Of a DNA stretch of 22,243 nucleotides, positions 1,632 through 19,444 are shown in pieces. Source of the DNA: Labilithrix luteola. GTDB lineage: Bacteria; Myxococcota_A; Polyangia; Polyangiales; Polyangiaceae. Below the pieces are notes generated by a model. It saw only the letters and a list, made by a program, of their open reading frames with translations. It was not told the DNA's origin and searched no databases. The stretch spans positions 1 to 22,243 of the forward strand of contig JAMFST010000064.1 of assembly GCA_026225435.1 (NCBI GenBank). Direction: 5' to 3'. The position numbers and the translations under genes are program-made. Position 1 is the stretch's first letter. Each line of letters starts with the position of its first letter.

Positions 1632-2189
1632 TCACCAACCCCACGCGTATTCAACGCGGAGGAAGAGGGTGGTGAAAGACGAGTAGGTGGAGGTTGCGTA
1701 GAAATGTTCGCGGGCGGCGACACCGACCGACCAGGTGCGATCGAGCTGGTAGTCGAGGCCGAGCGCGACCTGAGCCGTCGCCAGCCCCTTCGCGTCGGGG
1801 AGGGCGCCTCCGGACAAAAGATCGCCGCCGAGCAGGATGCCGCCGTACGGCACCCAGCGCAGGACGTCGAGCACGTAGGTCGCGCCGACCGCGCCGCTGG
1901 TGAGGCCGCTGGGGCGGGAGTGGGGGACGTCCGGATCGCTGCCCGGCACGAGGCGCGACGTCTGCACCTCGGCGACGAGGTTGAACTGATCCGTGAGGCC
2001 GTACGTCGCGTCGAGACCGAAGCCCACGCCGAGGTGCATGGTGTCGCCCACCTCGAGCCCCGAGCCGCCGACGCCCGCGCCGACGTGCCACTGCTGCTCG
2101 ACCGCGCGCGCGCGCCGCTCGCCGACCAGCGAGGTCACGACGAGCGCGGCGAACGCCACGCCCGAGGAGGCTTTTCTCGCGGCCAGCAC
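1632..2189 (-). CDS. Predicted outer-membrane beta-barrel protein, Dsb-operon partner
   Basis: A 185-residue protein that starts best at GTG 2189, which places a signal peptide at the N-terminus (LAARKASSGVAFAALVV, then GERRARA before VEQQW). The mature region is barrel-like, with repeated aromatic/Gly strands (WHVGAGVGGSGLEV, MHLGVGFGLDATYGL, FNLVAEVQTSRL, ATYVLDVLRWVPYGGILLGG, AQVALGLDYQL, WSVGVAAREHFY) and a C-terminal strand ending in W (LFLRVEYAWGW), the usual BAM-recognition-type end. It begins 19 bases after the stop of the triple-Dsb lipoprotein gene with no clear Shine-Dalgarno, suggesting translation coupled to that gene. There is no cysteine in the mature protein. An alternative frame at 1651-2208 (Arg/Ala-rich) is an overlap shadow. 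The start is uncertain; the barrel assignment is by pattern only. Confidence 0.7.
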   Translation of the reverse strand: MLAARKASSGVAFAALVVTSLVGERRARAVEQQWHVGAGVGGSGLEVGDTMHLGVGFGLDATYGLTDQFNLVAEVQTSRLVPGSDPDVPHSRPSGLTSGAVGATYVLDVLRWVPYGGILLGGDLLSGGALPDAKGLATAQVALGLDYQLDRTWSVGVAAREHFYATSTYSSFTTLFLRVEYAWGW

Positions 2190-2208
2190 GACGGCCGCTG
2201 TACCACAC

Positions 2209-4290
2209 CTAGTTTTTAGTGGCCGACTTCGCCGCGGTCGCGGGCTCGCCGTCGTGGAGCGCGAGGTCGATGGCGCGGAGGAAGATGCCCGGGTCCTGCG
2301 CACCCTCGACCACGTAGCCGGTCCACTTCGGGTTCTCGGCTGAGCTGCCCGCGGCCTTCTTTCCCGCCGGTCCGACGATGACGAACGTAGGCGTACCGTT
2401 GAACCCGGCTGCGTCGGCGACCTTGGCGTCGCGGTCTACCTCGGGACGGTGCTTGCCGGGAGTCGTCTTGTCAGGGCTCGAGCCCGAGCCCGGAGGTGCC
2501 GTGGTGAGAGCCGCGCGCATCTTGTCCGCATCGAGCTTCGCCGCCGGCGCGTAGCCGACGATCGAATCGAGCTCGAGCCCGTGCTCCTCGCCGCCGTGGG
2601 CGAAGAGCGCGTCGTGCAGCGGCCAGAAGCCGGCGTTCCCCTTCTGCGCGAAGGCCTCGACCCCCGCCTCGGCGGCCAGCTCCGCGTGCGGGTGCATCTC
2701 GAGCGGACGGTTCATCCACACCAGCTGCACGTTGCCGCCGTGCTCGTCGACGAAGGTGCGCACCGTCGCCTCGGCGCGGATGCAGTAGGCGCACTGGAAG
2801 TCGGCGAACTCGACGATCGAGACCTTGGCGTTCGCCGGGCCGCGCACCGGCAGCTTGGCGAGCGGCGCCGGCAGCTCGATGGTCTTCTGCGGCGGCTTCG
2901 TGCCGGTCTTCCCCTCGGCCATGATCGTCGCGTACACCGACGCGGCCGGCGTGCCCGCCTTGGCCATCGCCGCGGCGTGATCGAGCTCCGCCTGGATGAG
3001 CGCGCGGAAGGCGCCCGCCGGCTGCGCGCCGATGAGGCGACGCCCGTTGATGAAGGTCTGCGGCGCCCCCTCCGAGTCGAGCTCGGCGCCGAGGCGCAGA
3101 TCCTCCTGGATGGCGGCGCGGTGGGTGTGCTGCTCGATGGCGCGCTTCACCTTGGCGCGGTCGAGCCCCATCTCCTGCGCGATCTGCCCGAGCGACTCTT
3201 CGCTGAGATCCACCTGCGAGGCGAAGAGGCGGTCGTGCGCATCCCAGAAGCCGGCGTCCCCCTTCTCGGCGCGCGCTTCGAAGGCCAGCTCGGCAGCCGG
3301 CTCGGCCCGCGGATGAATGGACAAAGGGAAGTTCTTCCAGACGACGCGGACCTTGCCCTCGTACTCCTTCTCGATCCCCTTCAACGTGGAATCGGCCTGG
3401 GCGCAGAAGGGGCACTGGAAGTCGCTGAAGAAGACCAGCGTGACCGGTGCGGCGGCCGGGCCCTTGGTCGGGCTGTTGCCGATGGGCACCTTCCACACGG
3501 TGGTGGTGTCCTCCGGCGGCTCGTTCGGCTCCTCGCCGCCGCTGCTCCCCGGCGGCGTGTAGTTGATCTTGCTGACCGTCACGTACAGGTCGTCGCGCGG
3601 GGTCCCCTTGTCGATGAGCGCCTTGGCTTGCTTGATCGTCTCGTCGATCGCCTCCTGGAAGACCGGGGCGGGGAGCGCGCCCGACACGAAGGCGCCGTTG
3701 ATGAAGAAGGCGGGCGTGCCGTCGACGCCGAGCTTCTCGCCCAGCGCCAGGTCGTGCGCCACCTGCTCCGTAGGGAAGCCGGTCGCCAGCTTCGCGTGCA
3801 GCTGCTCGGCGCTGACGCCGGCGGCTTGCGCCTCGGCCTCGAAGGTGTCGCCGAGCTTCTTCTCCGGCATGAGCGCGTCGTGGAACTTCCAGAACGCCGT
3901 CGACCCGCCGACCGAGTACACCGCGCTCGCCGCCTGCGCCGCCGGCTTGGCGTGCGGGTGGATCGACAGCGGGAAGTGCTTCCACACGATGCGCAGCTGG
4001 TCGGGGCCGTAGGTCTTCTTCAGCGTCTCCAGCGTCGGCTCGACCCGCTTGCAGAAGACGCACTCGAAGTCGGCGAACTCCACCACCGTCACCAGCGCCG
4101 TCGGGTTGCCCCACACCGGGTCGTCGGGATCGACGGGGACGACCGCGGTCTGATCCTTCGTCAGCGCGGCGGACTTCTCCGCGGCGGAGGCGGGAGCGAC
4201 CGGCGATACCGGCGTCTTGTGCGCGCAGGCGGCGGCGAACGTGAGAGCCGCGAACGGCAGCAAGCGGGCGAGAGAGCGAGCGGAAAACAC
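2209..4290 (-). CDS. Triple DsbA-like thioredoxin-fold lipoprotein (copy 1)
   Basis: A 693-residue predicted lipoprotein carrying three consecutive DsbA/Thioredoxin_4-type domains. The N-terminus (MFSARSLARLLPFAALTF) is a lipoprotein signal ending AAAC with the acylated Cys at residue 22, which would tether the protein to a periplasmic membrane face. Domain 1 (about 57-235) has CVFC at 77-80 and GTPAFFING at 191-199. Domain 2 (about 265-455) has CPFC at 293-296 and GAPQTFING. Domain 3 (about 480-680) has CAYC at 500-503 and NGTPTFVIVG at 631-640, with an extended loop before and after it. Each domain keeps the CxxC and the cis-Pro strand of thiol oxidoreductases. The start is GTG 4290, with AAGGA about 7 bases upstream. 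It follows a strong terminator of the copy 2 gene, so it should have its own promoter. Its own downstream partners are two barrel proteins. Family call secure; redox direction (oxidase, isomerase or reductase) unknown. Confidence 0.9.
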   Translation of the reverse strand: MFSARSLARLLPFAALTFAAACAHKTPVSPVAPASAAEKSAALTKDQTAVVPVDPDDPVWGNPTALVTVVEFADFECVFCKRVEPTLETLKKTYGPDQLRIVWKHFPLSIHPHAKPAAQAASAVYSVGGSTAFWKFHDALMPEKKLGDTFEAEAQAAGVSAEQLHAKLATGFPTEQVAHDLALGEKLGVDGTPAFFINGAFVSGALPAPVFQEAIDETIKQAKALIDKGTPRDDLYVTVSKINYTPPGSSGGEEPNEPPEDTTTVWKVPIGNSPTKGPAAAPVTLVFFSDFQCPFCAQADSTLKGIEKEYEGKVRVVWKNFPLSIHPRAEPAAELAFEARAEKGDAGFWDAHDRLFASQVDLSEESLGQIAQEMGLDRAKVKRAIEQHTHRAAIQEDLRLGAELDSEGAPQTFINGRRLIGAQPAGAFRALIQAELDHAAAMAKAGTPAASVYATIMAEGKTGTKPPQKTIELPAPLAKLPVRGPANAKVSIVEFADFQCAYCIRAEATVRTFVDEHGGNVQLVWMNRPLEMHPHAELAAEAGVEAFAQKGNAGFWPLHDALFAHGGEEHGLELDSIVGYAPAAKLDADKMRAALTTAPPGSGSSPDKTTPGKHRPEVDRDAKVADAAGFNGTPTFVIVGPAGKKAAGSSAENPKWTGYVVEGAQDPGIFLRAIDLALHDGEPATAAKSATKN

Positions 4291-4314
4291 GCGCGCATCC
4301 TTAGCGCACCCCGC

Positions 4315-4353
4315 AAAGAAAAACGGCCCGGAGCGCGAAGCCCCGAGCCGTTT
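4315..4353 (-). terminator. Intrinsic terminator of the copy 2 Dsb gene
   Basis: On the - strand this region folds into a stem of about 13 pairs. The outer arms ACGGC (with flanking A's) pair with GCCGT, followed by TCGGGGC pairing with GCTCCGG (two G-T wobbles) around a TTCGC loop. A T-rich tail (TTTTTCTTTG) comes immediately after the stem. It starts about 38 bases past the stop of the triple-Dsb gene ending at 4392 and lies just before the start of the next gene at 4290. This is the only textbook Rho-independent terminator I found in the window. Confidence 0.85.
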
Positions 4354-4391
4354 CGTTCAGCGGTCACTGCAGCGGCTTCACGCCGCGGGAG

Positions 4392-6419
4392 TCACTTCGC
4401 TTCCGCGAGAGCGCGCTTGATGACCTTCTCGAACTTCGCCTGCGGCTGCGCGCCGTTGATGAAGTAGCCGTTGATGACGAAGGCCGGCGTGCCGCTGATC
4501 TGCGCGTCGTCACCGGTCTTGGAGTCGGCGTCGATGTCGGCCTTGTGCGTCGAGTTGTCGAGCGCGGCCTTGAACTTCGCCATGTCGAGCCCCTGGTCCG
4601 AGGCGTACTGCTCGAGCGCGGCGCGCTTGATGCCATCCGGCTTCTGCTGGTTGGCGAAGAGCGTGTCGTGCATCTTCCAGAAGCCGTCGTTGCCCTTCTG
4701 CTTGTAGGCCTCCATGGCCGCCTCGGCCGCGAGCGGCGCGTCGGGGTGCATGGGGAGCGGCTTGTTGCGCCAGACGAACTTGACCTGGTCCTTGTACTCC
4801 TTCATCACCGCCTGGATCGTCGGCTCCACGCGCCCGCAGAAGGGGCACTGGAAGTCCGAGAACTCCTGGATGACGACCTTGGCCTTGAGGTTCCCCATGG
4901 CCGGTGCGTTGGGCGACAGAGCGACGTTCTTCTTCTCGAGATCCGGCGCGCCCTTGCCGTCGGCGATGATCGAGTCGTAGACCTTCGCCGCCGAGGTGCC
5001 CTTGGCGACGAGCGCCTGCGAGTGGGCGATCTCCTCGTCGATGACGGCCTTGAACTTGTCGAACGGCTGCGCGCCGACGAGGCTGCGACCGTTGATGAAG
5101 AAGTGCGGCGTGCCGCCCCCACCGAGGTCATCGGCGAGATCGGAGTCGGCGTCGATGTCCTTCTTGTAGGTGTGGTTCTTCAGGGCCGCGTGGACCTTGT
5201 CGAGGTTGAGGCCAGCCGCGGTCGCGATGGAGTCGAGGTCGGCGTCTTCCAGCTTCGGGTTCGAGGCGAAGAGCTTGTCGTGAACGTCCCAGAAGCCCTT
5301 GTCACCCTTCTCGGACTTGGCTTCCATCGCCAGCTCCGCGCAGGGTTCCGCGCGGTTGTGGAAGGGGAGCGGCTGGTTCTTCCAGACGAGGCGGACCTTG
5401 TCGCCGTAGGCGTCGTGGACCTGCTTCAGCGTGTCCTCGACGCGCTTGCAGAAGGGGCACTGGAAGTCGGAGAACTCGACCATGGTGACGAGCGCGTCGT
5501 TCTTGCCCTCGACCGGCGAGGCGCCGACCGGAACTTTGTACACCGTCTTGGTGTCTTCCTTCGGCTTGTCGTCGTCGTCGTCGCCCTTGGCGGCCGGAGC
5601 GTTCTTCTTGTTCTCCTGGCTCATGGCGACGTAGAGCTTGTCCTTCGGGGTGCCGCTGGCGAGCTTCGCCTGCGCCTTCTGGAGCTCCTGGTCGATGACG
5701 GCCTTGAACTTGTCGACCGGCTGCGCGCCCGAGAGGAGCACGCCGTTGATGAAGAAGGCCGGGGTGCCGTTGACGCCCGCGGTCTTGCCGGCCGCGTTGC
5801 TCTTGTCGACCTTGTCGGCCCAGGTGTGAGCGGTGAGGCCCGCCTGGAACTTGTTCATGTCGGTGACGCCGGCGTCCTTGGCCCACGTCGTGTAGCTGGC
5901 GTCCGACAGCGCGCCCTGGTTCTTGAAGGCGGTGTCGTGGAACTTCCAGAAGCCGTCGTTGCCGGCGAGAGCGAAGACGCCCTCACCCGCTTCGGCGGCC
6001 GGCTTGGCCTTCTCGTGGAAGGGGAGCGGCGCGTCTTTCCAGACGATGCGGATCTTGTCCTTGCCGTACTGGTCCTTCAGCTGCTGCATCGTCGGCTCGA
6101 CGCGGCCGCAGAAGGGGCACTGGAAGTCGGAGAACTCGACGATGGTGACCGGCGCGGTGCGCGAGCCCCACATCGGGTCGGCGCTGGTGATGGGGATCGC
6201 CGCGTCGGCGTCGCTCCACGCGCCACCGGCGGACGCCGTGGTGCTGTCCGCCGAGATGCTGGCGGTCTTTCCGCCGTGGGAGTCATAGCCCCACATGACG
6301 GCGCCGCCGGCGAGGAAGCTGAAAAGGAATCCGATGACGGCGACGCCGGTGTTCATTCCACCGACGGGGCCGTCGTCGTGACGCGGTCTGTCCGCCGCCA
6401 CGCTCTTGTCTTTGGCCAT
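4392..6419 (-). CDS. Membrane-anchored triple DsbA-like thiol oxidoreductase (copy 2)
   Basis: A 675-residue protein with a short basic cytoplasmic N-terminus, one membrane segment (about residues 24-45, VAVIGFLFSFLAGGAVMW) and three periplasmic DsbA-like domains. Active sites are CPFC at 101-104, 321-324 and 525-528, each in the context (E/V)FSDFQCPFC. Cis-Pro strands are GTPAFFING (about 218-226), GTPHFFING (about 436-444) and GTPAFVING (about 643-651). Domain linkers are Ala/Lys/Asp-rich, including an acidic run at about 280-286. Domain 2 has an extra Cys at 360 (EPCAELAMEA) shared with copy 3. I chose ATG 6419 because it gives a compact positively charged N-terminus; an in-frame GTG at 6446 would add nine residues, and neither has a strong ribosome site. 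The coding DNA ends at 4392 before a strong terminator. It resembles copy 3 domain by domain, so the pair arose by gene duplication after the three domains were already joined. Confidence 0.92.
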   Translation of the reverse strand: MAKDKSVAADRPRHDDGPVGGMNTGVAVIGFLFSFLAGGAVMWGYDSHGGKTASISADSTTASAGGAWSDADAAIPITSADPMWGSRTAPVTIVEFSDFQCPFCGRVEPTMQQLKDQYGKDKIRIVWKDAPLPFHEKAKPAAEAGEGVFALAGNDGFWKFHDTAFKNQGALSDASYTTWAKDAGVTDMNKFQAGLTAHTWADKVDKSNAAGKTAGVNGTPAFFINGVLLSGAQPVDKFKAVIDQELQKAQAKLASGTPKDKLYVAMSQENKKNAPAAKGDDDDDKPKEDTKTVYKVPVGASPVEGKNDALVTMVEFSDFQCPFCKRVEDTLKQVHDAYGDKVRLVWKNQPLPFHNRAEPCAELAMEAKSEKGDKGFWDVHDKLFASNPKLEDADLDSIATAAGLNLDKVHAALKNHTYKKDIDADSDLADDLGGGGTPHFFINGRSLVGAQPFDKFKAVIDEEIAHSQALVAKGTSAAKVYDSIIADGKGAPDLEKKNVALSPNAPAMGNLKAKVVIQEFSDFQCPFCGRVEPTIQAVMKEYKDQVKFVWRNKPLPMHPDAPLAAEAAMEAYKQKGNDGFWKMHDTLFANQQKPDGIKRAALEQYASDQGLDMAKFKAALDNSTHKADIDADSKTGDDAQISGTPAFVINGYFINGAQPQAKFEKVIKRALAEAK

Positions 6420-6593
6420 TTTAGGTACGTTCTTTCTGATGTTCACTGCGTGAATGCCGGCGGCGCCGACGGCGAGCCCGGAAGGAGCGCGCGCCGCAGC
6501 GACGAAGGCGGATGAAGATGTGGCCTCGCGAGCCAGCTCGAGGATCGAGCCGGCTGCGAACGAGGAGATGCGCGAGCTAGAGAAACGTCGGCT

Positions 6594-7019
6594 TCAGACG
6601 CGCGACGACGAGCGCGGCGGCCGCTCGAGCGCGAAGATCTCGCCGGCTCGAGGTCCATCCGTGGTCGTGATCGGGTCGAGCAAGCTCGCCGACGGCAAGG
6701 CAAGCTGGACGGCCGGCGGGAGCGAGCACGCGGGCATGTCCGAGTCGATGATCAGGCGCGGCGCATCGCGATGGAGCGAGCTGCTGTCGTCCGGGGCCGC
6801 CGCGGCGTCCATCCCGGCGTCGCACTCGGTCGTCACCGCACCGGGCACCGCGTCGATCTCGACCGACGTCTGCGGGGTGTCGAGCGTGGGCGGCGGCGCG
6901 TTGGCCGAAGCTCCGCGGTGATCGCACATCGGCGCGGACGCGCGCGCGTCGCCACACGCCAGCCACAGGGCGAGGCCCATGGCAGCGGTGAGAACGAAGC
7001 GGGTCCAGCGACGGAGCAT
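6594..7019 (-). CDS. Small cysteine-containing secreted protein of unknown function
   Basis: A 141-residue protein with a clear Sec signal peptide (MLRRWTRFVLTAAMGLALWLAC, likely cleaved after ARASA near residue 29). The mature part is Pro/Ala/Asp-rich and low in predicted structure. It contains Cys at 32 (PMCDHRGA), 66 (TTECDAG) and 98 (MPACSL), and a PPPTLDTPQTSVEID segment. I have a general memory of similar PMCD-x-x-GAS-x-x-APPP proteins in Polyangiales-type myxobacteria, but I cannot name a characterised homologue. The start at ATG 7019 is chosen because it begins the signal peptide; the longer open frame upstream overlaps yhbY. It sits 65 bases after yhbY and 174 bases before the copy 2 Dsb gene, on the same strand. 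It may be a disulfide client of the flanking Dsb proteins (inference). Confidence 0.65.
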   Translation of the reverse strand: MLRRWTRFVLTAAMGLALWLACGDARASAPMCDHRGASANAPPPTLDTPQTSVEIDAVPGAVTTECDAGMDAAAAPDDSSSLHRDAPRLIIDSDMPACSLPPAVQLALPSASLLDPITTTDGPRAGEIFALERPPRSSSRV

Positions 7020-7084
7020 GCGCCGTCGCACTTTGGATCGGACCGCCCCGTCTCGGCAAGCTAGGAGAGCCGTGGCCGAGCTCG

Positions 7085-7600
7085 TCAGGTCTCGTCGTCG
7101 CTGAAATCGCCGTCGGCCGGATCGGAGACCGGCTTCCCCTCGAGCTCGCGGGAGACGCGGGCGGTGGCGCGGGTCGAGCGGCCTTCTCGCGGGGTCTTGG
7201 CCGTGGCTTTCGCCTTGCGATCCGCACGCTTGGCGCGGTTCGCCTTGGCCTTGCCAGGGGGCGGCTTCACCTTGGGCGCCTTCTCTCCCGGCAGCAGGAT
7301 CTTCGGCTTCTTCGTGTTCCGCTTGAAGAGGAGGAGCGTGCGGCCGAGCAGTCCGACCATCTCCCCGCCGCTCGCCGCGGCCAGCTCCGCGGCCACCGCC
7401 TTGCGATCGTGATCCTCGGTGGTGGCGTTCTCCCCCAGCTTCACCTTGATCAGCTCGTGGGTCGTGAGCGCGCTCTTCACCGAGGCGACGAGCGCTTCCG
7501 ACAGCCCCTCCTTGCCGACGAGGACGACGGGCTTGAGAGGATGACCGAGGCCCCGGAGGTGCAGGCGCGCTTTTGCCGACAATGTGACTGTTGTATCCAC
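7085..7600 (-). CDS. yhbY: YhbY-family CRM-domain RNA-binding protein with basic tail
   Basis: A 171-residue protein whose first about 100 residues are a CRM domain, the YhbY fold that associates with the pre-50S ribosomal subunit. The match is clear: LSAKARLHLRGLGHPLKPVV, the GxxG loop GKEG at 29-32, LIKVKLGEN, and GLLGRTLLLFKRN before KPKILLP. The remaining about 65 residues are an Ala/Lys/Arg-rich tail ending in an acidic SDPADGDFSDDET. The usual bacterial YhbY is about 95-100 residues, so the tail is an extension, probably disordered and RNA-contacting. The start is GTG 7600. It lies 43 bases after the stop of the copy 3 Dsb gene on the same strand and 65 bases before the small secreted protein gene. 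Its housekeeping ribosomal role has no obvious link to the Dsb genes around it. Confidence 0.9.
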   Translation of the reverse strand: MDTTVTLSAKARLHLRGLGHPLKPVVLVGKEGLSEALVASVKSALTTHELIKVKLGENATTEDHDRKAVAAELAAASGGEMVGLLGRTLLLFKRNTKKPKILLPGEKAPKVKPPPGKAKANRAKRADRKAKATAKTPREGRSTRATARVSRELEGKPVSDPADGDFSDDET

Positions 7601-7643
7601 GGCGGCTTCGTATCACGGCGCAGCCTCTTTCACCCGGCTACCG

Positions 7644-9596
7644 CTACTTGGCTTCCGCGAGGGCGCGGTCGACGACCTTCTCGAACTTGCCGAGCGGCTG
7701 CGCGCCGCTGACGTAGTAGCCGTTGACGAGGAAGCCGGGCGCGCCGTGGATCTGCGCGTCGGCCGCGCTCTTCGTGTCGGCGTCGATCTCCGCCTGGTGC
7801 GTCAGGTGGTCGAGCGCCGCCCGGAAGCGGGTCATGTCGAGCCCCTGGCCTTCGGCGTATTGCTCGAGCGCGGCGCGTTTCAGGCCGTCGGGCTTCTGCT
7901 GGCTGGCGAAGAGCGTGTCGTGCATCTTCCAGAAGCCGTCGTTTCCCTTCTGCTTGTAAGCCTCCATCGCGGCCTCGGCGGCCAGCGGTGCGTCGGGGTG
8001 CATGGAGAGCGGCAGGTTGCGCCACACCAGCTTCACCCGGTCGCCGTACTCCTTCATCAACGCCTGGAGCGTCGGCTCGGCGCGCGCGCAGAAGGGGCAC
8101 TGGAAATCGGAGAGCTCCTCGATGACCACCTTGGCCTTGAGGTTCCCCCTGGCCGGCGCGTTCGGCGCGGCGGTGAGCGTCTTCTTCTCGAGATCGGCAG
8201 CGTGCGGCTCGACTGCCGTCTTCATCGTTTCGTCGTAGATCTTCGCGGCCGGTACCCCCTTCGCGGCGAGCGACTGCGCGCGCGCCAGCTCGTCGTCGAC
8301 GAGCGACTTGAAGCGCTCGAAGGGGACGGCGCCGACGAGGCTGCGACCGTTGACGAAGAAGTTCGGCGTCGCCGTCATGCCGAGCGAGTCGGCGAGCGCT
8401 TCGTCGGCGTCGATGTCCTTCTTGTACGTGTGGTTCTTCATGGCCGCGTGGACCTTGTCGAGGTTCAAGCCGGCGGCGGTGGCGATGGCGTCGAGGTCGG
8501 CGTCCTCCAGCTTCGGGTTCGAGGCGAAGAGCCGGTCGTGGACGTCCCAGAAGCCGCGATCGCCCTTCTCTGCCTTCGCTTCCATCGCCAGCTCGGCACA
8601 CGGCTCGGCGCGGTCGTGGAAGGGGAGCGGCTGGTTCTTCCAGACCACGCGGACCTTGTCGCCGTACGTCTCGTGCACCTGCTTGAGCGTGTCCTCGGCG
8701 CGCTTGCAGAAGGGGCACTGGAAGTCGCTGAACTCGACCAGCGTGACCAGCGCGTCGGGCTTGCCTTCGATGGGGGCAGCGCCGAGCGGCACCTTGTGGA
8801 CGGTGGTGTCGGCAGCATCCGCGGCAGCCGCGGGAGGTGCCTTGGCGGCGGCGCTCTTCCGGTTCTCCTGGCTCATGACGACGTAGACCTTGTCGGCGGG
8901 GACGCCGCTGGCGAGCTTGGCCTGCGCCTTCTGCAGCTCCTGGTCGATGACCGCTTCGTACTTGTCGACCGGCTGCGCGCCGGAGACGAGCACGCCGTTG
9001 ACGAAGAAGGCGGGCGCGCCGGTGATGCCCGCGGCGTTGCCGGCGGCGGCGTTCTTGTCGACCTTGTCCGCCCACGTGTGAGCGGACAGGCCCGCCTGGT
9101 ACTTCGCCATGTCGGGCACGCCGGCGTCCTTCGCCCAGCGCACGTAGCTCTCGGCGCCGAGGGCCGCCTGGCTCTTGAAGGCGGCGTCGTGGAACTTCCA
9201 GAAGGCGTCGTTGCCGGCGAGCGCGAAGACGCCCTGTCCCGCCTCGGCGGCCGGCTTGGCCTTCTCGTGCATGGAGAGCGGCTCGTCCTTCCAGACGAAG
9301 CGCAGCTTGTCCTTTCCGTAGTGCTCCTTCAGCTGCGCGATGGCCGGCTCGGCGCGGCCGCAGAACGGGCACTGGAAGTCGGAGAACTCGACGATGGTGA
9401 CCGGCGCGGTGCGCGAGCCCCACACCGGATCGGCGCTGCTCACGGGAATGGCCGCCTCGGCGTCGCTCCACGCGGCACCGGCGCTCGCTGCCGACGCGCG
9501 GGCATCGCCGCCGCCGTGAGCTTCGTAGCCCCACACGAGGGCACCGCCGGCGAGGAAGGCGAGGAGAAATCCGACGGTGGCGACTCCGCTGTTCAT
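7644..9596 (-). CDS. Membrane-anchored triple DsbA-like thiol oxidoreductase (copy 3)
   Basis: A 650-residue paralogue of copy 2 with the membrane anchor at the extreme N-terminus (about 5-24, GVATVGFLLAFLAGGALVWG) and three DsbA-like domains. Active sites are CPFC at 76-79, 294-297 and 500-503. Cis-Pro strands are GAPAFFVNG (193-201), ATPNFFVNG (409-417) and GAPGFLVNG (618-626). Two of the three replace the usual Thr before the cis-Pro with Ala, while copy 2 keeps Thr in all three; in DsbA-type enzymes this residue tunes redox behaviour. Domain 2 has the extra Cys at 333. The ATG at 9596 is the only usable start after an in-frame stop 30 bases upstream, which is the end of the PAP2 gene. The two genes are probably cotranscribed. 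There is no strong ribosome site. The stop is TAG at 7644-7646. Confidence 0.92.
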   Translation of the reverse strand: MNSGVATVGFLLAFLAGGALVWGYEAHGGGDARASAASAGAAWSDAEAAIPVSSADPVWGSRTAPVTIVEFSDFQCPFCGRAEPAIAQLKEHYGKDKLRFVWKDEPLSMHEKAKPAAEAGQGVFALAGNDAFWKFHDAAFKSQAALGAESYVRWAKDAGVPDMAKYQAGLSAHTWADKVDKNAAAGNAAGITGAPAFFVNGVLVSGAQPVDKYEAVIDQELQKAQAKLASGVPADKVYVVMSQENRKSAAAKAPPAAAADAADTTVHKVPLGAAPIEGKPDALVTLVEFSDFQCPFCKRAEDTLKQVHETYGDKVRVVWKNQPLPFHDRAEPCAELAMEAKAEKGDRGFWDVHDRLFASNPKLEDADLDAIATAAGLNLDKVHAAMKNHTYKKDIDADEALADSLGMTATPNFFVNGRSLVGAVPFERFKSLVDDELARAQSLAAKGVPAAKIYDETMKTAVEPHAADLEKKTLTAAPNAPARGNLKAKVVIEELSDFQCPFCARAEPTLQALMKEYGDRVKLVWRNLPLSMHPDAPLAAEAAMEAYKQKGNDGFWKMHDTLFASQQKPDGLKRAALEQYAEGQGLDMTRFRAALDHLTHQAEIDADTKSAADAQIHGAPGFLVNGYYVSGAQPLGKFEKVVDRALAEAK

Positions 9597-9626: not shown

Positions 9627-10226
9627 TTACACCTGGTGCGCGCTATCGCGTTCTTTCCTCGCCGCCTTCGCCGCCTCGAGATCGCGCCGCAAGCTGGCGA
9701 GGTACAGCTCCCCGCCGCCGAACCCGATCCCGCACCCGAGGAGCGCGCCGGCGAGGATGTCGCTCGGGTAGTGCACGCCGAGGAACACGCGGGAGATGGC
9801 CACCAGCAACGCCAGCACCACGAGCACGCTGGCGAGGAGCACCGCCCGCGCGCTGCGCCCGTCGCCACGGGCGACCACCGTGAGGACGAAGACCGCGAGC
9901 GCGAAGCTGCCGGCGGAGTGGCCGCTCGGGCAGGAGAAATCGGTCGGCGGATCGCTCACCAGCGCGCGCACCCAGGGGACGGCCTGGTACGGGCGGAGCC
10001 GGCGGATGATCAGCTTCACCGTGAAGACCAGCGCGCCGGTCGTGAGCAGTGTGCTGATGAGGTAAGCCGCCAGGCGTCGCGGGCGGCTCCAGAAGAGCAC
10101 CGGGACGAAGGCGAGGATGATCCAGCCCTCCCCGATGACGGTGACCGCCTGCATGAACGCCAGCAGCGCGGCGGGCGCGTTTCCCCCGTACAAATGTCGA
10201 AGGAGGTAGTCGTCGAAGGGGTTCAT
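9627..10226 (-). CDS. PAP2-superfamily membrane phosphatase
   Basis: A 199-residue polytopic membrane protein with all three phosphatase signature blocks of the PAP2/lipid phosphatase superfamily: KX6RP at 71-79 (KLIIRRLRP), PSGH at 100-103, and SRX5HX3D at 145-156 (SRVFLGVHYPSD). About five or six hydrophobic segments surround these. The family removes phosphate from lipid phosphates such as phosphatidic acid, phosphatidylglycerol phosphate or undecaprenyl pyrophosphate, with the active site usually on the periplasmic side; which substrate applies cannot be decided. The start ATG 10226 is preferred over the longer frame to 10430 because the extra N-terminus overlaps tyrA. It is divergent from tyrA with 70 bases between starts, and it is upstream of, and probably cotranscribed with, the copy 3 Dsb gene. 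Confidence 0.88.
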   Translation of the reverse strand: MNPFDDYLLRHLYGGNAPAALLAFMQAVTVIGEGWIILAFVPVLFWSRPRRLAAYLISTLLTTGALVFTVKLIIRRLRPYQAVPWVRALVSDPPTDFSCPSGHSAGSFALAVFVLTVVARGDGRSARAVLLASVLVVLALLVAISRVFLGVHYPSDILAGALLGCGIGFGGGELYLASLRRDLEAAKAARKERDSAHQV

Positions 10227-10296
10227 GGGCGAGGCCGCGGGGCACGGTAAGCCAAAATCGGTCGAGCCGGTCGCCAGGTCGGCTACAAACGGGGCC

Positions 10297-11442
10297 ATGA
10301 CCGACGTGCCCGCGCCCGCGCCCACGACCGAGCTGGCCCAGCTGCGCGATGCGCTCAACGCGACCGACGAGGCGCTGGTGGCCATCCTCGCCGAGCGGAT
10401 GCGCATCGTCCGCGAGGTGGCGCGCACCAAGGCGAAGCGCGGCGCGCCCAGCTTCGACCGCGAGCGCGAGGGGGCGCATCTGGACGATCTGCTCCTCTAC
10501 GCCGGCACCCACGACCTGCCCGCCGAGGTGGTGCGCGACGTCTTCGGTACGCTGTTCTCCGCCTCGCGCGGGGCGCAGCGGAAGTACCTGCAGGAGGAGG
10601 CGCCGCGCTTCTCCATCGGCATCATCGGCGGCACCCGCGGCATGGGCGGCTTCATGGCGCGCGTGTTCCTGAGCGCGGGCTTCCCGGTCGAGACGATGGG
10701 GCTCGAAGGGGGCGCGCCGCCCGAGGAGCTGGCCGCGCGGCACGATCTGGTGGTGCTGGCGGTGCCCATCGCCGCCACGGTGGCGATGGCCGAGCGGGTC
10801 GCGCCGCACGTGCGCCCGGGGAGCACGTTGATGGACGTCACCTCGCTCAAGCGCGCGCCCTTGGAAGCGATGCTGCGCGCCGCGCCCGAAGGCATCGAGG
10901 TGGTCGGCACGCATCCGATGTTCGGGCCGGCGGGAGAGGACTTCGACCGGCAGAAGGTCGTGCTGGTGCGCGGGCGCGGCACGAGCGGCTTCGCCCGGGT
11001 GAAGCAGCTCTACGAGCTGTTCGGCGCGGAGATCATCGAGAGCACGGCGGAGGAGCACGACGCGCAGATGGCGCTCATCCAGGTGCTGGTGCACGAGAAG
11101 ACGATGGTGCTCGGCTCGGTCCTCGAGCGGCGCCAGGCCGGGATCGTCCGCAGCCTGCAGTTCGCCAGCCCCATCTACCGCACGGAGCTCGCCATGATCG
11201 GGCGCATGTTCTCCCAGAGCGCCGAGCTCTACGCCGACATCCTCACCAGCAACCCGGAGTCGGCCGCGCTGTCCAAGCTCTTCGAGCAAGAGGCGAGCTT
11301 CTTCGCCGGCGCGGTGTCGCGCGGAGATCGCGAGGCGGTGGTGAAGCGCTTCGGCGAGATCGCGCTGTACATGAAGGAGTTCGCCGCCTGGGCGAAGAAA
11401 GAATCGGACACGTTGCTCCACGACGTAACCCGGCGCGGCTGA
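10297..11442 (+). CDS. tyrA: Bifunctional chorismate mutase / prephenate dehydrogenase (T-protein)
   Basis: A 381-residue fused enzyme that rearranges chorismate to prephenate and oxidises it to 4-hydroxyphenylpyruvate for tyrosine synthesis. The N-terminal AroQ-type chorismate mutase occupies about 10-95 (ELAQLRDALNATDEALVAILAERM, then VARTKAKRG). The dehydrogenase follows, with the dinucleotide loop GIIGGTRGMGG at 108-118, THPMFGP at 205-211 containing the catalytic His, and the C-terminal helical domain with SPIYRTELAMIGRMFSQSAELYADI at about 291-315. This closely tracks the enteric TyrA (about 373 residues). The start ATG 10297 is chosen because it removes a short non-conserved extension. 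A TACAAA box lies only 8 bases before the ATG, so the leader may be very short. The stop overlaps the next start as TGATG, indicating translational coupling. Confidence 0.95.
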   Translation: MTDVPAPAPTTELAQLRDALNATDEALVAILAERMRIVREVARTKAKRGAPSFDREREGAHLDDLLLYAGTHDLPAEVVRDVFGTLFSASRGAQRKYLQEEAPRFSIGIIGGTRGMGGFMARVFLSAGFPVETMGLEGGAPPEELAARHDLVVLAVPIAATVAMAERVAPHVRPGSTLMDVTSLKRAPLEAMLRAAPEGIEVVGTHPMFGPAGEDFDRQKVVLVRGRGTSGFARVKQLYELFGAEIIESTAEEHDAQMALIQVLVHEKTMVLGSVLERRQAGIVRSLQFASPIYRTELAMIGRMFSQSAELYADILTSNPESAALSKLFEQEASFFAGAVSRGDREAVVKRFGEIALYMKEFAAWAKKESDTLLHDVTRRG

Positions 11443-13115
11443 TGGCGACCGACCTGCGCACGCGCATCACCGATCCGGGGTTCACCCCCAGCTTGCGGGA
11501 CACCGCCGCCGTCGTCGACCTGCTCGCGGAGGGGGACGCGCCCGACGAGAACGACAAGAACGGCAAGACCGTCTTCGAGCTGGCCTGCAAGGCGCTGCTC
11601 CGCCTGGCGCCGCTGGGGGATCCGGCGTGGGATGCGCTGGCGAAGCTCGTCGGCGATCCGCGGCCGCGAGTGCGCGCGGGCGTGATCGACGTGCTCACCC
11701 AGATCGACGCCGAGAAGACCGTCCCGCTGGCGGTCCGCGCGCTTGCCGATGACGAGGCGGCGGTGCGGCGGCGCGCGATCGCAGCGCTCGGGCGCAAGAC
11801 CGACGAGCGCGGCGAGAAGGCGCTCCTGGCGCTGTACCCGACGGCGAGCGCGCCGCACCGGCGGGCCATCGTGCTGGCGCTGGGCAAGAGCGGCGAGGAG
11901 GCGGCGCTCATCTTCCTGCGCACGCTGTCCGACGATCCGACGACCGCGGAGGATCCCGAGCTGACGCGGCTGGTGCAGCAGGCGCGCGCGCGCCTCGAGC
12001 GCGACGAGATCCGGCAGACGCCGAGCCGCATCGTCGGGGACCGCGTGCTGGCGGCGGAGCACCTGCCGTTCGCGGTGACCTTCCTCACGCGGCGCGGCCT
12101 CGAGCCGCTGGTGGTCGAGGAGCTGGCGAGCCGCAACCTCGGTCTCGGCGCGGGGCGCATCACCGGCGAGGGGAGGGTGACCATCGCCTGGCGCGGCACG
12201 CTCGAAGGGGCGCTCGCCGCCGCACGTTGCGCGTACGGAATCGCGCTGCCGCTCACGTCGTCGACCGAGACGACGGAGGCGACTGGCACGAGCGGTGACG
12301 ACGAGGCGTTCGCGCAGTCGCTGGTGCGCGCGCTCACCTCGGAGGAGGCCAAGGCACGTCTCGCCGGCCTGACCGAGGGGCCCGTGCGCTTCCGTCTCTC
12401 CGTCGAAGGGGCCGGGCACAAGCGAGCGCTGGTGTGGAAGGTGGCCGGCGCGCTCGCGGCGAACCCGGAGACGGCCTGGCTGGTGAACGACACGCAGCAG
12501 GCGCCCTGGGAGGCGAACGTCACCCGCGCCGATCCGCTGGCGATCGACCTGCTGCCGCGCGCGCTCCTCGACGAGCGCTTCGCCTACCGCGAGCACGATG
12601 TGCCCGCGTCCAGCCACCCGCCGCTCGCCGCCGCGCTCGCTCGCGTCGCCGGAGTGCGCGCCGAGGACGTGGTCTGGGATCCCTTCGTCGGCGCCGGGAC
12701 CGAGCTCGTCGAGCGAGCCAAGCTTGGGCCCTACGCGAAGCTCTTCGGCAGCGACCGCGACGCTCCGGCCATCGCCGCGGCCCGCGCCAACGTGAAGAAG
12801 GCGGGGCTCGACGGGATCGCGCTCCGCGTCACCGACGTCTTCGCCGAGCCGCCGCCGGGCGTCACCGTCATCCTCACCAATCCGCCGATGGGGCGCCGCG
12901 TCACCGGCGCGCTCGACCTGTCGACCTTGCTCGATCGGTTCATCCTCCACGCGGCCAAGGTGCTGGCGAAGCCGGGCTCGCGGCTGGTGTGGCTCTCCCC
13001 GCAGCCCAGGCGCACACGCACCCGCGCCGAGGCCGAGGGGCTCACTCTGTCTCGCGCCCTGACCATCGACATGGGAGGCTTCGACGCAGAGCTGCAACGC
13101 TTCGATCGGCTCTGA
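11442..13115 (+). CDS. HEAT-repeat / THUMP-like / RNA methyltransferase fusion protein
   Basis: A 557-residue protein with two unrelated halves. Residues about 58-190 are HEAT-like helical repeats (DPAWDALAKLVGDPRPRVRAGVID, TVPLAVRALADDEAAVRRRAIAALG, then further helices). From about 206 a THUMP/RlmL-like N-lobe begins (LPFAVTFLTRRGLEPLVVEELAS). The C-terminus is a Rossmann SAM methyltransferase of the UPF0020/TrmN/RlmL type, with motif I DPFVGAGT at 413-420, an acidic GSDRD at 436-440 and the catalytic NPPMG at 480-484. The NPP(M/F) motif is typical of N2-guanine or N6-adenine methylation of RNA. The ATG overlaps the tyrA stop by one base. The substrate RNA is unknown. The HEAT segment is not part of standard TrmN/RlmL proteins and may mediate a protein contact. 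Confidence 0.82.
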   Translation: MATDLRTRITDPGFTPSLRDTAAVVDLLAEGDAPDENDKNGKTVFELACKALLRLAPLGDPAWDALAKLVGDPRPRVRAGVIDVLTQIDAEKTVPLAVRALADDEAAVRRRAIAALGRKTDERGEKALLALYPTASAPHRRAIVLALGKSGEEAALIFLRTLSDDPTTAEDPELTRLVQQARARLERDEIRQTPSRIVGDRVLAAEHLPFAVTFLTRRGLEPLVVEELASRNLGLGAGRITGEGRVTIAWRGTLEGALAAARCAYGIALPLTSSTETTEATGTSGDDEAFAQSLVRALTSEEAKARLAGLTEGPVRFRLSVEGAGHKRALVWKVAGALAANPETAWLVNDTQQAPWEANVTRADPLAIDLLPRALLDERFAYREHDVPASSHPPLAAALARVAGVRAEDVVWDPFVGAGTELVERAKLGPYAKLFGSDRDAPAIAAARANVKKAGLDGIALRVTDVFAEPPPGVTVILTNPPMGRRVTGALDLSTLLDRFILHAAKVLAKPGSRLVWLSPQPRRTRTRAEAEGLTLSRALTIDMGGFDAELQRFDRL

Positions 13116-14559: not shown

Positions 14560-15741
14560 TCAGGCCTTCGCGCCGCGCGCGTCGGGCTTGACGTAGCGAT
14601 CGGTCGCCCCCTGGATGGCTGCGGCCTGCAGCGCGTCGAGCTCCGCGTGGTTGGCCCGGGCGCTCTTCTCTGCGTTGAGCAGGCGGCGGTGCGACGGCTG
14701 GAAGACCGGCATCACGTGCCGCGCGAAGAGCTCGTAGTGACGCTGCGTCGCGTCCCAGTTGGCCCAGTCGTGCTGCATCATCATGTAGCAACCGAACCCG
14801 CCGTTCGACTGCTCGACCAGCCGCTGGATCTGCTTGATGGCGTCGTCCGGCGTGCCGATGACGCCGAGGCCGGTCTCGTTGATCCAGGCGATGCGCTCCT
14901 CGAACGTCTTGCCGACCGCGCGGAACGTCGGCAGCGCCAGCGTGTCCTGCGTGTACTCGCAGAACTGCTCGTAGCCGTAGCGCACGTCCTCGAGCGCCTG
15001 CTTCTTCGTCTCGGCGAGGTGCATCGGCCCGACCAGGCGCCACTGGCTGCGGTCGACCTTCTGCCCGTGCGCCTTCGCCTCGTCCTCGAGCACGTTCCAG
15101 TGGTGGGCGAGGACGTCGAAGCCGATCTTCGTGGTCGCGCCGAGCGAGAGGAGCCCGGCGCCGTACTTGCCGGCCATCTTCGGCCCGGTCGGCGACGCGG
15201 TGGCGGCGACGGCGAGCTCGAAGCACGGGCTCTGGTACGGCGCGAGCTGCGTCTTGGCGTTCCTCAGGTCGTACCGGGCCGTCTTTGCGGTCACCGGTTC
15301 GTCCCCCTTGAGCAGGCGCACGAGCACGTCCAGATCCTCCTCCAGCGCCGGGCGCAGGTCGGCCGGTTGCAGGCCGATCATCGTCGCGTCCTCGGGGAGC
15401 GCGCCCGGCCCCACGCCGAGCATCAGGCGACCACGCAGGAGGTGGTCCACGAGGATGGCGCGGTCCGCGAGCCAGAGCGGGTTGTGGTACGGCAGCGAGA
15501 CGACGCCGGTGCCCAGCTTGATGCGCCTGGTGACCGCGCCGACGTGGGCGATGAAGGTGAGCGGGTCGGCGATGATCTCGGTGCCGGCGGAGTGGTGCTC
15601 GCCGACCCAGGCCTCGTCGTAGTCGAGCCGGTCCATCAGCTGGATCGTCTCGATGTTGCGCTGCAGCGACACAGTCGGATTCTGCGTCGGCGGGCAGTTG
15701 AACGGCGGCATGAAGATTCCGAAGCGCATCTTGTTGTTCAT
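14560..15741 (-). CDS. LLM-class flavin-dependent monooxygenase
   Basis: A 393-residue bacterial-luciferase-like oxidoreductase. The family uses reduced FMN (usually F420-independent in this subgroup) and O2 to oxidise small organic substrates. Diagnostic segments are MRFGIFMPPF at 5-14, YDEAWVGEHHSAG at 41-53, RRIKLGTGVVSLPYHNPLWLADR at about 72-94, RGRLMLGVGPGALPED at about 103-118, and a late GTPDDAIKQIQRL. This is the branch often seen in hydrocarbon, terpene or sulfur-compound metabolism, but no substrate can be named. The start at ATG 15741 is supported by AAAGAGG five bases upstream. The open frame extends upstream, but the extra 90 residues are Arg-rich out-of-frame sequence of the regulator. 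It begins 11 bases after the stop of the GAF-Fis regulator gene, so the two are cotranscribed. It converges on glcD with 21 bases between stops. Confidence 0.9.
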   Translation of the reverse strand: MNNKMRFGIFMPPFNCPPTQNPTVSLQRNIETIQLMDRLDYDEAWVGEHHSAGTEIIADPLTFIAHVGAVTRRIKLGTGVVSLPYHNPLWLADRAILVDHLLRGRLMLGVGPGALPEDATMIGLQPADLRPALEEDLDVLVRLLKGDEPVTAKTARYDLRNAKTQLAPYQSPCFELAVAATASPTGPKMAGKYGAGLLSLGATTKIGFDVLAHHWNVLEDEAKAHGQKVDRSQWRLVGPMHLAETKKQALEDVRYGYEQFCEYTQDTLALPTFRAVGKTFEERIAWINETGLGVIGTPDDAIKQIQRLVEQSNGGFGCYMMMQHDWANWDATQRHYELFARHVMPVFQPSHRRLLNAEKSARANHAELDALQAAAIQGATDRYVKPDARGAKA

Positions 15742-15752
15742 GGGGACCTCTT

Positions 15753-16817
15753 TCAGGTGCGAATTCCGTAGCGATGGATCTTGTCGTAGAGCGAGCGACG
15801 CGAGATGCGCAGCTCCTCCGCGGCGTGCGACTTGTTGCCGCCGTGGCGGGCGAGCGACTCGAGGATGACGGCGCGCTCGGCGCGGTCGAGCGGCGACAGG
15901 TCGAGGCTCTCGGCGGCGGTCGTCGCCGTCGCCGGCTCGTCGGTGCGCGCGGCCAGGGTGTCCACCTCGAGGACCACGCCGTCGTCGAACGTCCCCGCGC
16001 TCACCGGCCACAGGCGCGCCATCAGCCCACCGGTCGCGCGCGCCTCGATCTCCACGAAGCGTGTCGCCGGCGTGACCGCGAGCACCCGCTGCCAGAGCGC
16101 ATCATGGTCGAGCGAGAGCTCGTCGCTGATGACGATCTTGTCGTTCACCGCGACCAGCGGAGCGAGCGTGCGCGCGCGGCGGCGGAGGTAGGCGTCGAGG
16201 AGGCGCTTGGTGCCGACGCTGGCGGCGGAGTGCAGCTCGGTGCGGACGTCGGCGGCCATCGAGCGGATGGCCACCTGGAGGAACTGGTTCGCCTCGCTGG
16301 CGCGGCAGGTGATGTTGACGACGCCGCACACGCGGCGGGTCACCGGGTGGAACACCGGCGCGGCCACGCAGGCCAGCTCGTGGAAGGCGCGGACGAAGTG
16401 CGCCGCGCCGAGCACCGTCGCCACCTTCTTGCTCTCGAGCGCGGTGCCGACGCCGTTGGTACCGATCTGCTCCTCGCTGAAGACGAAGCGCTGCTCGAGG
16501 TGGTGCCGCGAGATGACCCGCGCGAGGCCGGGGTCCGACACCCAGCGCCAGAGGATGGTCCCGTTGGGATCACCCAGCGCGAGACAGGCGGTGCCACCGG
16601 TGAGCAGCTCCGCGGTCTTCAGCATCACCGGCACAGCCGCGCGGATGAACGGCGAGTCGAGCGGAACGTCGACGAAGCGCGCCTCGGCCTTGTCGGGATC
16701 GACGCCGTTCCATTTCGAGCGACGCCACGACTGCACCACGTCGTCGCTCACGCCGCGCGGCGCCCGGTCCGTCTGCTGGAATGCCTCCCACGCGCGCGTC
16801 GTCGTCATGGCCGTCAT
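15753..16817 (-). CDS. GAF-domain, Fis-type HTH regulator lacking the AAA+ domain (AcoR-like)
   Basis: A 354-residue predicted transcription regulator. The N-terminal part contains DVVQSWRRSKWNGVDP (about 26-41) and a GAF-type ligand-sensing domain (about 60-190) with the AcoR-family hallmarks FSEEQIGTNGVGTAL at 113-127 and FHELACVAAPVFHP at 145-158. The C-terminus is a Fis-type helix-turn-helix, about 314-352 (ILESLARHGGNKSHAAEELRISRRSLYDKI). The AAA+ sigma-54-activating ATPase that normally lies between them (Walker A and GAFTGA) is missing; instead there is a region of about 120 residues with VNDKIVISDELSLDHDALW. It therefore cannot activate sigma-54 polymerase in the usual way and probably acts as a one-component regulator. 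The start ATG 16817 has GGGGGT just upstream. It precedes the LLM monooxygenase gene, its likely target, with a matching upstream inverted repeat. Confidence 0.85.
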   Translation of the reverse strand: MTAMTTTRAWEAFQQTDRAPRGVSDDVVQSWRRSKWNGVDPDKAEARFVDVPLDSPFIRAAVPVMLKTAELLTGGTACLALGDPNGTILWRWVSDPGLARVISRHHLEQRFVFSEEQIGTNGVGTALESKKVATVLGAAHFVRAFHELACVAAPVFHPVTRRVCGVVNITCRASEANQFLQVAIRSMAADVRTELHSAASVGTKRLLDAYLRRRARTLAPLVAVNDKIVISDELSLDHDALWQRVLAVTPATRFVEIEARATGGLMARLWPVSAGTFDDGVVLEVDTLAARTDEPATATTAAESLDLSPLDRAERAVILESLARHGGNKSHAAEELRISRRSLYDKIHRYGIRT

Positions 16818-16856
16818 CGCTACCCCCGATGACTATGGTGCGCGCGCGAGCCGTCG

Positions 16857-16897: not shown

Positions 16898-16941
16898 GTT
16901 ATTTGGTGCGCCGCGTCAGCGACGACGAGCGCGTCGCGAGC

Positions 16942-18420: not shown

Positions 18421-18441
18421 CGGGCGCGGAGCGTAGCGCAA

Positions 18442-19347: not shown

Positions 19348-19373
19348 TCACGTAACTTGAAGAGTGACGTGAA
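19347..19373. promoter_or_regulatory. Inverted repeat TTCACGT-N13-ACGTGAA at the flavoprotein start
   Basis: TTCACGT (19347-19353) and ACGTGAA (19367-19373) are exact complements. The element begins at the last base of the flavoprotein start codon complement and extends into the 97-bp divergent intergenic region. A regulator binding here would block the flavoprotein gene's translation-start region or promoter. Which protein binds is not shown. Confidence 0.5.
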
Positions 19374-19377
19374 AGAT

Positions 19378-19413
19378 GTCAAGCCGAGTCAAGCCGGGTC
19401 AAGCCCGCTTGAC
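19378..19413. promoter_or_regulatory. Operator-like array: three 10-bp-phased GTCAAGCC repeats ending in a palindrome
   Basis: GTCAAGCC occurs at 19378-19385, 19388-19395 and 19398-19405, exactly 10 bases apart, i.e. one helical turn. The last copy pairs with GCTTGAC (19407-19413) as a perfect 7-bp palindrome around CC. The array lies between the divergent flavoprotein and Rrf2 genes, ending 31 bases before the Rrf2 ATG. Rrf2-family proteins bind dyads at such positions, so it is probably the site of the adjacent regulator. Confidence 0.6.
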
Positions 19414-19444
19414 CGCGGTCGAGTCATGCCGCAAATCATGTTCC

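Follow-up and report, generated by a model that had tools for sequence, protein, structure and literature searches.

Three-domain DsbA-like proteins in Labilithrix luteola and a conserved small exported reading frame upstream, a candidate arrest peptide

We analyzed a stretch of 22,243 nucleotides from Labilithrix luteola (contig JAMFST010000064.1 of assembly GCA_026225435.1, positions 1 to 22,243; hereafter the window), in which three clustered genes, A, B and C, each encode a single chain carrying three DsbA-like domains. Directly upstream of B lies a small exported open reading frame (ORF) with a conserved proline motif at its C-terminus and cysteines set at a preferred distance from that motif. 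This ORF was absent from the features listed in an initial annotation of the window, and in our judgment no other part of the locus is as informative. From the sequences, we consider it an even call that A, B and C act as multi-site thiol oxidases and that B is under the control of the small ORF, working as a nascent-chain sensor. Below we set out the evidence on the proteins and on the ORF, and then weigh this reading against its rivals.

Triple-domain DsbA-like proteins and their spread

The initial annotation had described three clustered genes with three DsbA-like domains each and nine CxxC sites, and profile searches and motif positions agree on this arrangement. The two Pfam families it had proposed as a check, Thioredoxin_4 and DSBA, both match all three proteins: Thioredoxin_4 in three stretches each of A (E-value 7e-56), B (6e-79) and C (7e-72), and DSBA in two separate stretches of A and three each of B and C, with matches to the DsbA-family profiles (PF13462/PF01323) exceeding the curated cut-off in every case. 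The best NCBIfam model, NF041057 (Rcas_1661 family), also matches all three domains; its whole-protein scores, which sum the three domains, are 259.2 bits for B, 250.9 for C and 156.8 for A, against a cut-off of 190. The CxxC sites lie at residues 77 (CVFC), 293 (CPFC) and 500 (CAYC) of A, at 110, 330 and 534 of B, and at 76, 294 and 500 of C; all six in B and C are CPFC, so that the window holds one CVFC, one CAYC and seven CPFC. The cis-proline had been called intact throughout, and a [GA][TA]P site indeed pairs with each of the nine motifs (9/9). Taking profiles and active sites together, we regard the sequence-based assignment of A, B and C to the DsbA domain family as secure, and the profiles suggest a DsbA fold for the domains. 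The lengths first given for A and C (693 and 650 residues) stand; that for B (675) holds only from an internal ATG at 6419, the GTG start giving 684 amino acids (aa). B and C are 74% identical. Beyond the 18 active-site cysteines, the three proteins contain only C22 of A, within a lipobox-like FAAAC, and C369 of B and C333 of C, both of which are located in domain 2. The lipobox of A and the transmembrane segments of B and C were assigned by reading the sequence.

Proteins of this kind are widely conserved. B is matched in 38 of 39 genomes (its own and 38 relatives), in many by open frames of at least 650 aa and in several by an adjacent pair. The named loci come from metagenome-assembled genomes labeled Myxococcales or Polyangiaceae, from Labilithrix, Polyangium and Byssovorax, and from a few Deltaproteobacteria and Planctomycetota. 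Among 230 homologues, the union of the best 120 for B and the best 120 for A, three domains are present in 135, four in 94 and two in one. An alignment of 87 triple-domain proteins, hand-picked from the homologue lists, shows the six active-site cysteines and three cis-prolines to be invariant (87/87). A pattern scan of 104 triple proteins found one first domain without a CxxC inside the matched stretch, and a loose cis-Pro pattern missed 19, 5 and 3 of them in domains 1, 2 and 3, respectively; the alignment is the better conservation figure. The active sites also differ by position across these 104 proteins, with CPYC at position 2 in 82 and CPFC at positions 1 and 3 in 81 and 74.

In a tree of 38 sampled homologues and the window proteins, domains 1, 2 and 3 of the triple proteins each formed one clade (29/29, support 0.995–1.0), and judged by sequence the three positions are separate old lineages. 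Because each is monophyletic across the triple proteins, the triplication predates the split between A and B. Every position of the four-domain proteins likewise formed a clade, of 10/12, and these domains are nearer to each other than to those of the triple proteins. As they cluster together, apart from the triple ones, the four-domain form probably arose separately. The four-domain proteins (~870 aa; P0005, P0048, P0115 and others), apparently the product of a separate tandem multiplication, are called thioredoxin domain-containing protein, protein-disulfide isomerase or DSBA-like thioredoxin domain protein where a name is given.

We also profiled the distribution of multi-domain proteins, as the initial annotation had suggested, across a phylum taken as Myxococcota from the names of the matching loci. 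The best scores over 282 genomes are bimodal, with none between 1e-65 and 1e-70. Splitting them at 1e-68, a score proxy for which domain numbers were confirmed only in fetched proteins and loci, places 148 of the 282 genomes in the multi-domain class and 134 in a class with single-domain proteins only; 50 of 55 families are uniformly one or the other, 21 of the 55 consisting of one genome. A plasmid search returned 3097 matching records, the ten best of which all matched at less than 40% identity and in several pieces, and in 2 records at least 80% of the query was covered at a single place. Conservation in relatives, invariant active sites and broad occurrence bear out the earlier suggestion of a specialized envelope thiol set, as opposed to a sequence accident. 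We found no papers on tandem or multi-domain DsbA or on myxobacterial DsbA in the openly licensed literature searched, where the large group of three- and four-domain proteins appears undescribed. Such proteins could serve as multi-site disulfide catalysts.

A small exported ORF upstream of gene B

The small ORF has a signal-peptide-like N-terminus and no Pfam match. Scoring 8000 database candidates yielded 15 relatives, which also lack a Pfam domain, and those with names are hypothetical proteins. When the ORF was picked by its N-terminal Cys motif alone, it was found at 28 of 46 loci (L031 and L049 being one locus), and all 28 carry Pro-Pro (PP) near the stop. A hidden Markov model (HMM) of 23 sequences gave 21 matches in 19 of the 39 genomes searched for B; 20 of these, compared by eye, immediately precede a triple-DsbA match in the same orientation; the one exception is weak and stop-containing. 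A wider HMM matched 93 of the 144 genomes in the order, and at the 30 best of the matched loci a DsbA ORF follows within 1.2 kb in every case (30/30). The ratio of nonsynonymous to synonymous substitution rates (dN/dS) is 0.21–0.57 over 12 pairs of relatives, indicating purifying selection. That the small ORF is a conserved and dedicated gene, is coding and bears a C-terminal motif is secure; in the openly licensed literature searched, no title concerned such a leader or triple-domain proteins.

The motif was counted with a caller blind to the C-terminus, which took the closest small exported ORF containing two or more cysteines in each of 109 regions. Collapsing six duplicates and setting aside two regions with too short an upstream stretch and 42 in which no ORF was called left 59 distinct ORFs. 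PP falls within the last 16 residues in 54 of the 59, against 7 of 86 control ORFs from the same loci, and [RH]PP in 52 of 59 against 2 of 86. This comparison is conservative, because a few true leaders passed over by the nearest-ORF rule are probably among the controls. Among the five ORFs without PP, two (L028 and L035) come from loci where a nearer ORF was picked though a motif ORF exists, one (L081) has RPPR further from its end, and no motif was found in the others (L048 and L093). RPP[RQS] is present at 43 of 54 C-termini and nowhere in 6369 internal residues, and the form is RPPR in 38 of the 54. With a small secretory upstream ORF and a C-terminal proline motif at these frequencies (54/59 versus 7/86), the leaders have the general anatomy of the RAPP type. 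The Cys-motif selection (28/46 loci) and the blind caller (59 ORFs) are the fair tests of the motif; a 23-row alignment (A2) was picked with an RPP-containing pattern, and its invariant RPP columns are no evidence alone.

Spacing was measured on 50 non-redundant leaders, obtained from the 54 by a 60% identity filter, PP being required for that set. A cysteine lies 62–66 residues before the motif in 37 of the 50, compared with a mean of 6.6 and a maximum of 17 in 2000 shuffling trials; widening the interval to 62–68 brings the count to 41, and no 5-residue window in any of 1000 shuffles held more than 18. A second cysteine occurs 89–95 residues before the motif in 28 of 50 (shuffle mean 8.9, maximum 21). 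The tail after PP is 1–3 residues long in 45 of 50, and between cysteine and motif only a glycine at −7 is strongly kept (40/50), a residue that the window leader retains. Nine leaders that come from other families within the order have their cysteines as a C-x7-C pair, mostly WCxxxDDPRC.

These features bear on whether the ORF regulates translation at all. The leader could instead be an ordinary secreted client or partner of triple DsbA, its C-terminal tail a binding site, with no translational regulation; a signal-peptide-like start and the dN/dS values of its relatives would fit this, and the conserved Cys motif would suit a client. We nonetheless find this account doubtful, since the roughly 60 residues from Cys to RPP keep their length and little of their sequence beyond the glycine, and the chain so often ends 1–3 residues past PP, which a nascent-chain ruler fits better than a folded partner does. 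Fixed length, little conserved sequence and an end at the stop codon thus favor the ruler.

A candidate mechanism, its partners and its rivals

On the reading we favor, the locus would work as follows. A, B and C would be periplasm-facing thiol-disulfide oxidoreductases, membrane- or lipid-anchored, whose three domains per chain are old, position-specific and, judged by their active sites, probably all redox-active. Most likely they serve as multi-site oxidases: each chain would offer several independent CxxC sites to exported Cys-containing proteins, somewhat like the multi-domain protein disulfide isomerases (PDIs) of the endoplasmic reticulum, and an electron acceptor such as a VKOR-type protein encoded elsewhere in the genome would re-oxidize the domains. 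The small exported ORF that precedes B would probably govern how strongly B is expressed. With the ribosome at [RH]PP, the conserved Cys would usually be 62–66 residues away (67 in the window), some 12–17 residues past a periplasmic exit at about 50 residues. Once the cysteines are oxidized, the chain would compact and the resulting pull would end the stall; with the cysteines unoxidized, the stall would persist and triple DsbA expression would rise. The available text of PMC7513700 supplies both the scale, ~50 extended residues spanning to the periplasmic exit of SecYEG, and a precedent, in that DsbA-dependent periplasmic folding of PhoA acts on the SecM stall by pulling. From good anatomy and such close precedents, we hypothesize that the leader stalls ribosomes and senses oxidation.

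The fullest version of this proposal is that the ORF gauges periplasmic disulfide formation through its nascent chain and has a length tuned so that the key Cys has just left the translocon at RPP, with DsbA-driven oxidation freeing the ribosome and its failure switching on triple DsbA. We hold this version tentatively, as possible rather than probable. If true, the gauge would provide direct feedback between extracytoplasmic oxidative folding capacity and its own catalyst, operating in lineages mostly without DsbB and using tandem DsbA. How bacteria sense the proper oxidation of proteins outside the membrane is, to our knowledge, an open question, and the locus offers a concrete, testable candidate sensor in a leader whose Cys usually stands at a fixed distance from the probable stall site.

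Several observations weigh against the proposal. Thr or Ala, not Val, precedes the cis-proline, and this fits an isomerase or reductase too. Neither A nor C has a leader of its own in the window, 51 of the 144 order genomes have no leader HMM match, and of the 42 among 109 regions that gave no such ORF, ~26 lie outside the order and ~16 inside, as judged by eye; at least two of the 42 nevertheless have a leader by other searches (L025 and G001). Thirteen of the 50 leaders lack a Cys at 62–66 (9 at 62–68), and the distance of the second Cys varies, with no single fixed value. The window leader is itself atypical, with Cys66 at 67 and a six-residue tail after PP. The predicted minimum-energy fold of the window spacer leaves the ribosome-binding region of B unpaired; SecM-style masking of that site was not seen in this fold, which covers one spacer sequence, the window's. 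VKOR is absent from 37 of the 148 multi-domain genomes. As to the motif, R[AG]PP occurs in 0 of 54 leaders, and the residue before PP is His in 5 of 54 and Glu or Met in 2 of 54. In the part of PMC12992588 available, replacing Ala by Pro in the RAPP of ApdA/ApdP leaves partial arrest only, and the Arg is irreplaceable.

The initial annotation had noted that the window contains no DsbB, DsbD or other quinone partner. This holds for the window only, where none of the 19 ORFs scanned matched the VKOR, DsbB or DsbD families. Elsewhere in the genome, contig C1440 has matches to VKOR and Thioredoxin_4 separated by 175 bases within a 375-aa open frame, and contig C628 has a DsbD_TM match. DsbB had no match in the genome, whose assembly has a listed completeness of 80%. 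VKOR is found in 195 of the 282 phylum genomes; its presence in 111 of the 148 multi-domain genomes and 84 of the 134 single-domain ones makes it a plausible but not obligate partner, and we rejected it as a strict one. DsbB occurs in 26 of the 282, in 25 of the 134 single-domain genomes and 1 of the 148 multi-domain ones. It is thus nearly restricted to genomes without multi-domain DsbA (25/26).

Multi-disulfide clients had also been suggested, and this idea gains weak, indirect support from cysteine-rich DUF4215 repeats, which are more numerous in multi-domain families (medians 15.25 versus 2; Mann-Whitney p 8.6e-5, over 55 families, 21 of them single-genome, with kinship ignored, DUF4215 the one repeat family compared and up to ~23 candidates scored per genome). 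There are clear exceptions both ways: multi-domain proteins without a DUF4215 match in own-family genomes G003, G011, G044 and G119 and in families f14 and f21, and the reverse in families f19, f33 and f37.

The cysteines of the leader might alternatively serve to sense a thiophilic metal, copper or another, as in CruR of Bordetella pertussis, while triple DsbA protects or repairs envelope thiols during copper stress in the manner of ScsC. In the available part of PMC9426467, the anatomy of CruR is close: it is exported, 145 aa long and followed by a 162-bp spacer, with a CXXC spaced 45 residues from a C-terminal RAPP, and its stall is lifted by copper. RAPP leaders often precede copper-related genes in the portion of PMC12992588 at hand, annotations of copper resistance or of suppression of copper sensitivity occur among the solved relatives of the domains, and the spacer in the window has more C than G (41% versus 28%), as a Rho-sensitive region might. 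However, the leader has no DUF2946 match, its Cys pairs are not CXXC, and no copper family appears among the window ORFs scanned. Its Cys-PP spacing is moreover not 45 but mostly 62–66 residues, which would reach the periplasm, whereas CruR, according to the same part of PMC9426467, senses cytoplasmic copper at 45 residues. We therefore think a metal sensor unlikely.

Decidedly unlikely, in our view, is a reductase or isomerase branch, in which triple DsbA would be kept reduced by DsbD and would repair wrong disulfides. The DsbD_TM match in the genome speaks for it, and TP at the cis-Pro site and CPYC or CPFC occur in isomerase-type proteins too; against it, the Pfam matches include no DsbC N-terminal dimerization domain, and the best solved sequence relatives include 4pwp (named DsbA) and BdbD, which we take to be oxidases. 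An electron relay between the three domains, raised in the initial annotation and favored by three regularly spaced sites per chain, was rejected as highly improbable, as no conserved extra cysteine links the domains to carry it, the lone domain-2 Cys falling outside the conserved columns of the 87 relatives, and multi-domain PDI proteins work without one.

Gene neighborhood and relation to known systems

Table 1. Features of the locus, in window coordinates (nucleotides)
Feature	Position	Strand	Description
Small barrel-like protein	1632..2196	minus	after A; start approximate, read from sequence; no Pfam family; relative in 12/27 related loci
Gene A	2209..4290	minus	693 aa; three DsbA-like domains; lipoprotein-like N-terminus (Cys22)
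Terminator-like hairpin and T run	4315..4342	minus	between B and A; consensus match only
Gene B	4392..6446	minus	hydrophobic N-terminal anchor and three DsbA-like domains, CPFC in each
147-bp spacer	6447..6593	minus	small ORF to B; C 41%, G 28%
Small exported Cys-containing ORF	6594..7019	minus	141 aa, directly upstream of B, ends ALERPPRSSSRV; candidate arrest peptide
RPPR codons (residues 133-136)	6612..6623	minus	near C-terminus of small ORF
Cys66 codon of small ORF	6822..6824	minus	67 residues before Arg133
Cys32 codon of small ORF	6924..6926	minus	motif APxCDxRGA
Gene C	7644..9596	minus	650 aa; paralogue of B, three CPFC domains; between PAP2 and small ORF here
PAP2-family gene	9627..10430	minus	relative in 8/27 related loci

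A composite gene order pieced together from 27 related loci, in which relatives of the neighbors are present in 8 to 12 of 27 and several contigs are short, runs tyrA (divergent), PAP2, small ORF, B-type gene, A-type gene, barrel-like protein, lysC. The window differs from it in that C and yhbY lie between PAP2 and the small ORF (Table 1). The yhbY gene, which encodes a CRM-domain RNA-binding protein (7085-7600, minus), lies between C and the small ORF and has no relative in the 27 loci. Because a terminator-like hairpin separates B from A, the A/B pair may not be a simple operon; terminator-like sites number 10 in the region against 5.8 expected. No known RNA regulator was matched in the window by Rfam. 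Elsewhere in the window, on the plus strand, a single ORF at 11442-13115 combines HEAT repeats with an RMKL-like methyltransferase domain, and three long ORFs (374, 352 and 962 aa; 14647-16832 and 16903-19791) have no Pfam match.

Among solved structures, the sequence relatives of the window proteins include 4pwp and 4pwo (named DsbA, presumably MdbA), BdbD (3eu3) and the ScsC-type 4xvw and 4gxz, with which they share CxxC and cis-Pro. These DsbA-family chains have one matched stretch and are mostly 175–260 aa long, whereas the window proteins have three domains per chain, each of its own lineage. NF041057, the best NCBIfam model for the three domains, describes a Rcas_1661 thioredoxin-like (seleno)lipoprotein and is a one-domain model of 247 positions, with A, as given above, below its cut-off. 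The closest likeness in architecture is to ERp46 and other multi-domain eukaryotic PDIs, whose exported chains each contain several thioredoxin-fold domains that are redox-active; they differ in domain type, and the window proteins are bacterial and, as read from their sequences, membrane-anchored, so that this is an analogy only.

The leader, too, has near relations in anatomy. It gave no Pfam match to the DUF2946 profile of CruR and falls outside the CruR/DUF2946 class, yet on the available part of PMC9426467 the two share a small exported upstream ORF, a Cys motif kept at a conserved distance from a proline motif near the C-terminus, and ~150 bp of spacer; they differ in that CruR has a CXXC 45 residues from RAPP and precedes copper operons, while window-type leaders mostly place a Cys 62–66 residues before [RH]PP. 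In the available text of PMC12992588, RAPP/RGPP leaders are enriched upstream of DsbA-family and thioredoxin genes, and one has a conserved Cys pair. SLIV_27375, as described there, resembles the window leader in its C-terminal Arg-Pro-Pro-type motif, its conserved Cys and the thioredoxin-type gene downstream; it differs in having four predicted transmembrane segments and R[AG]PP, where the window leader has a signal-peptide-like start and RPP[R] and stands before a triple DsbA. The R/H choice before PP finds a parallel in the RQH family, in which, in the accessible section of PMC10987492, R, Q or H precedes APP. On its sequence, the leader resembles CruR and the RAPP-type arrest peptides and belongs to neither.

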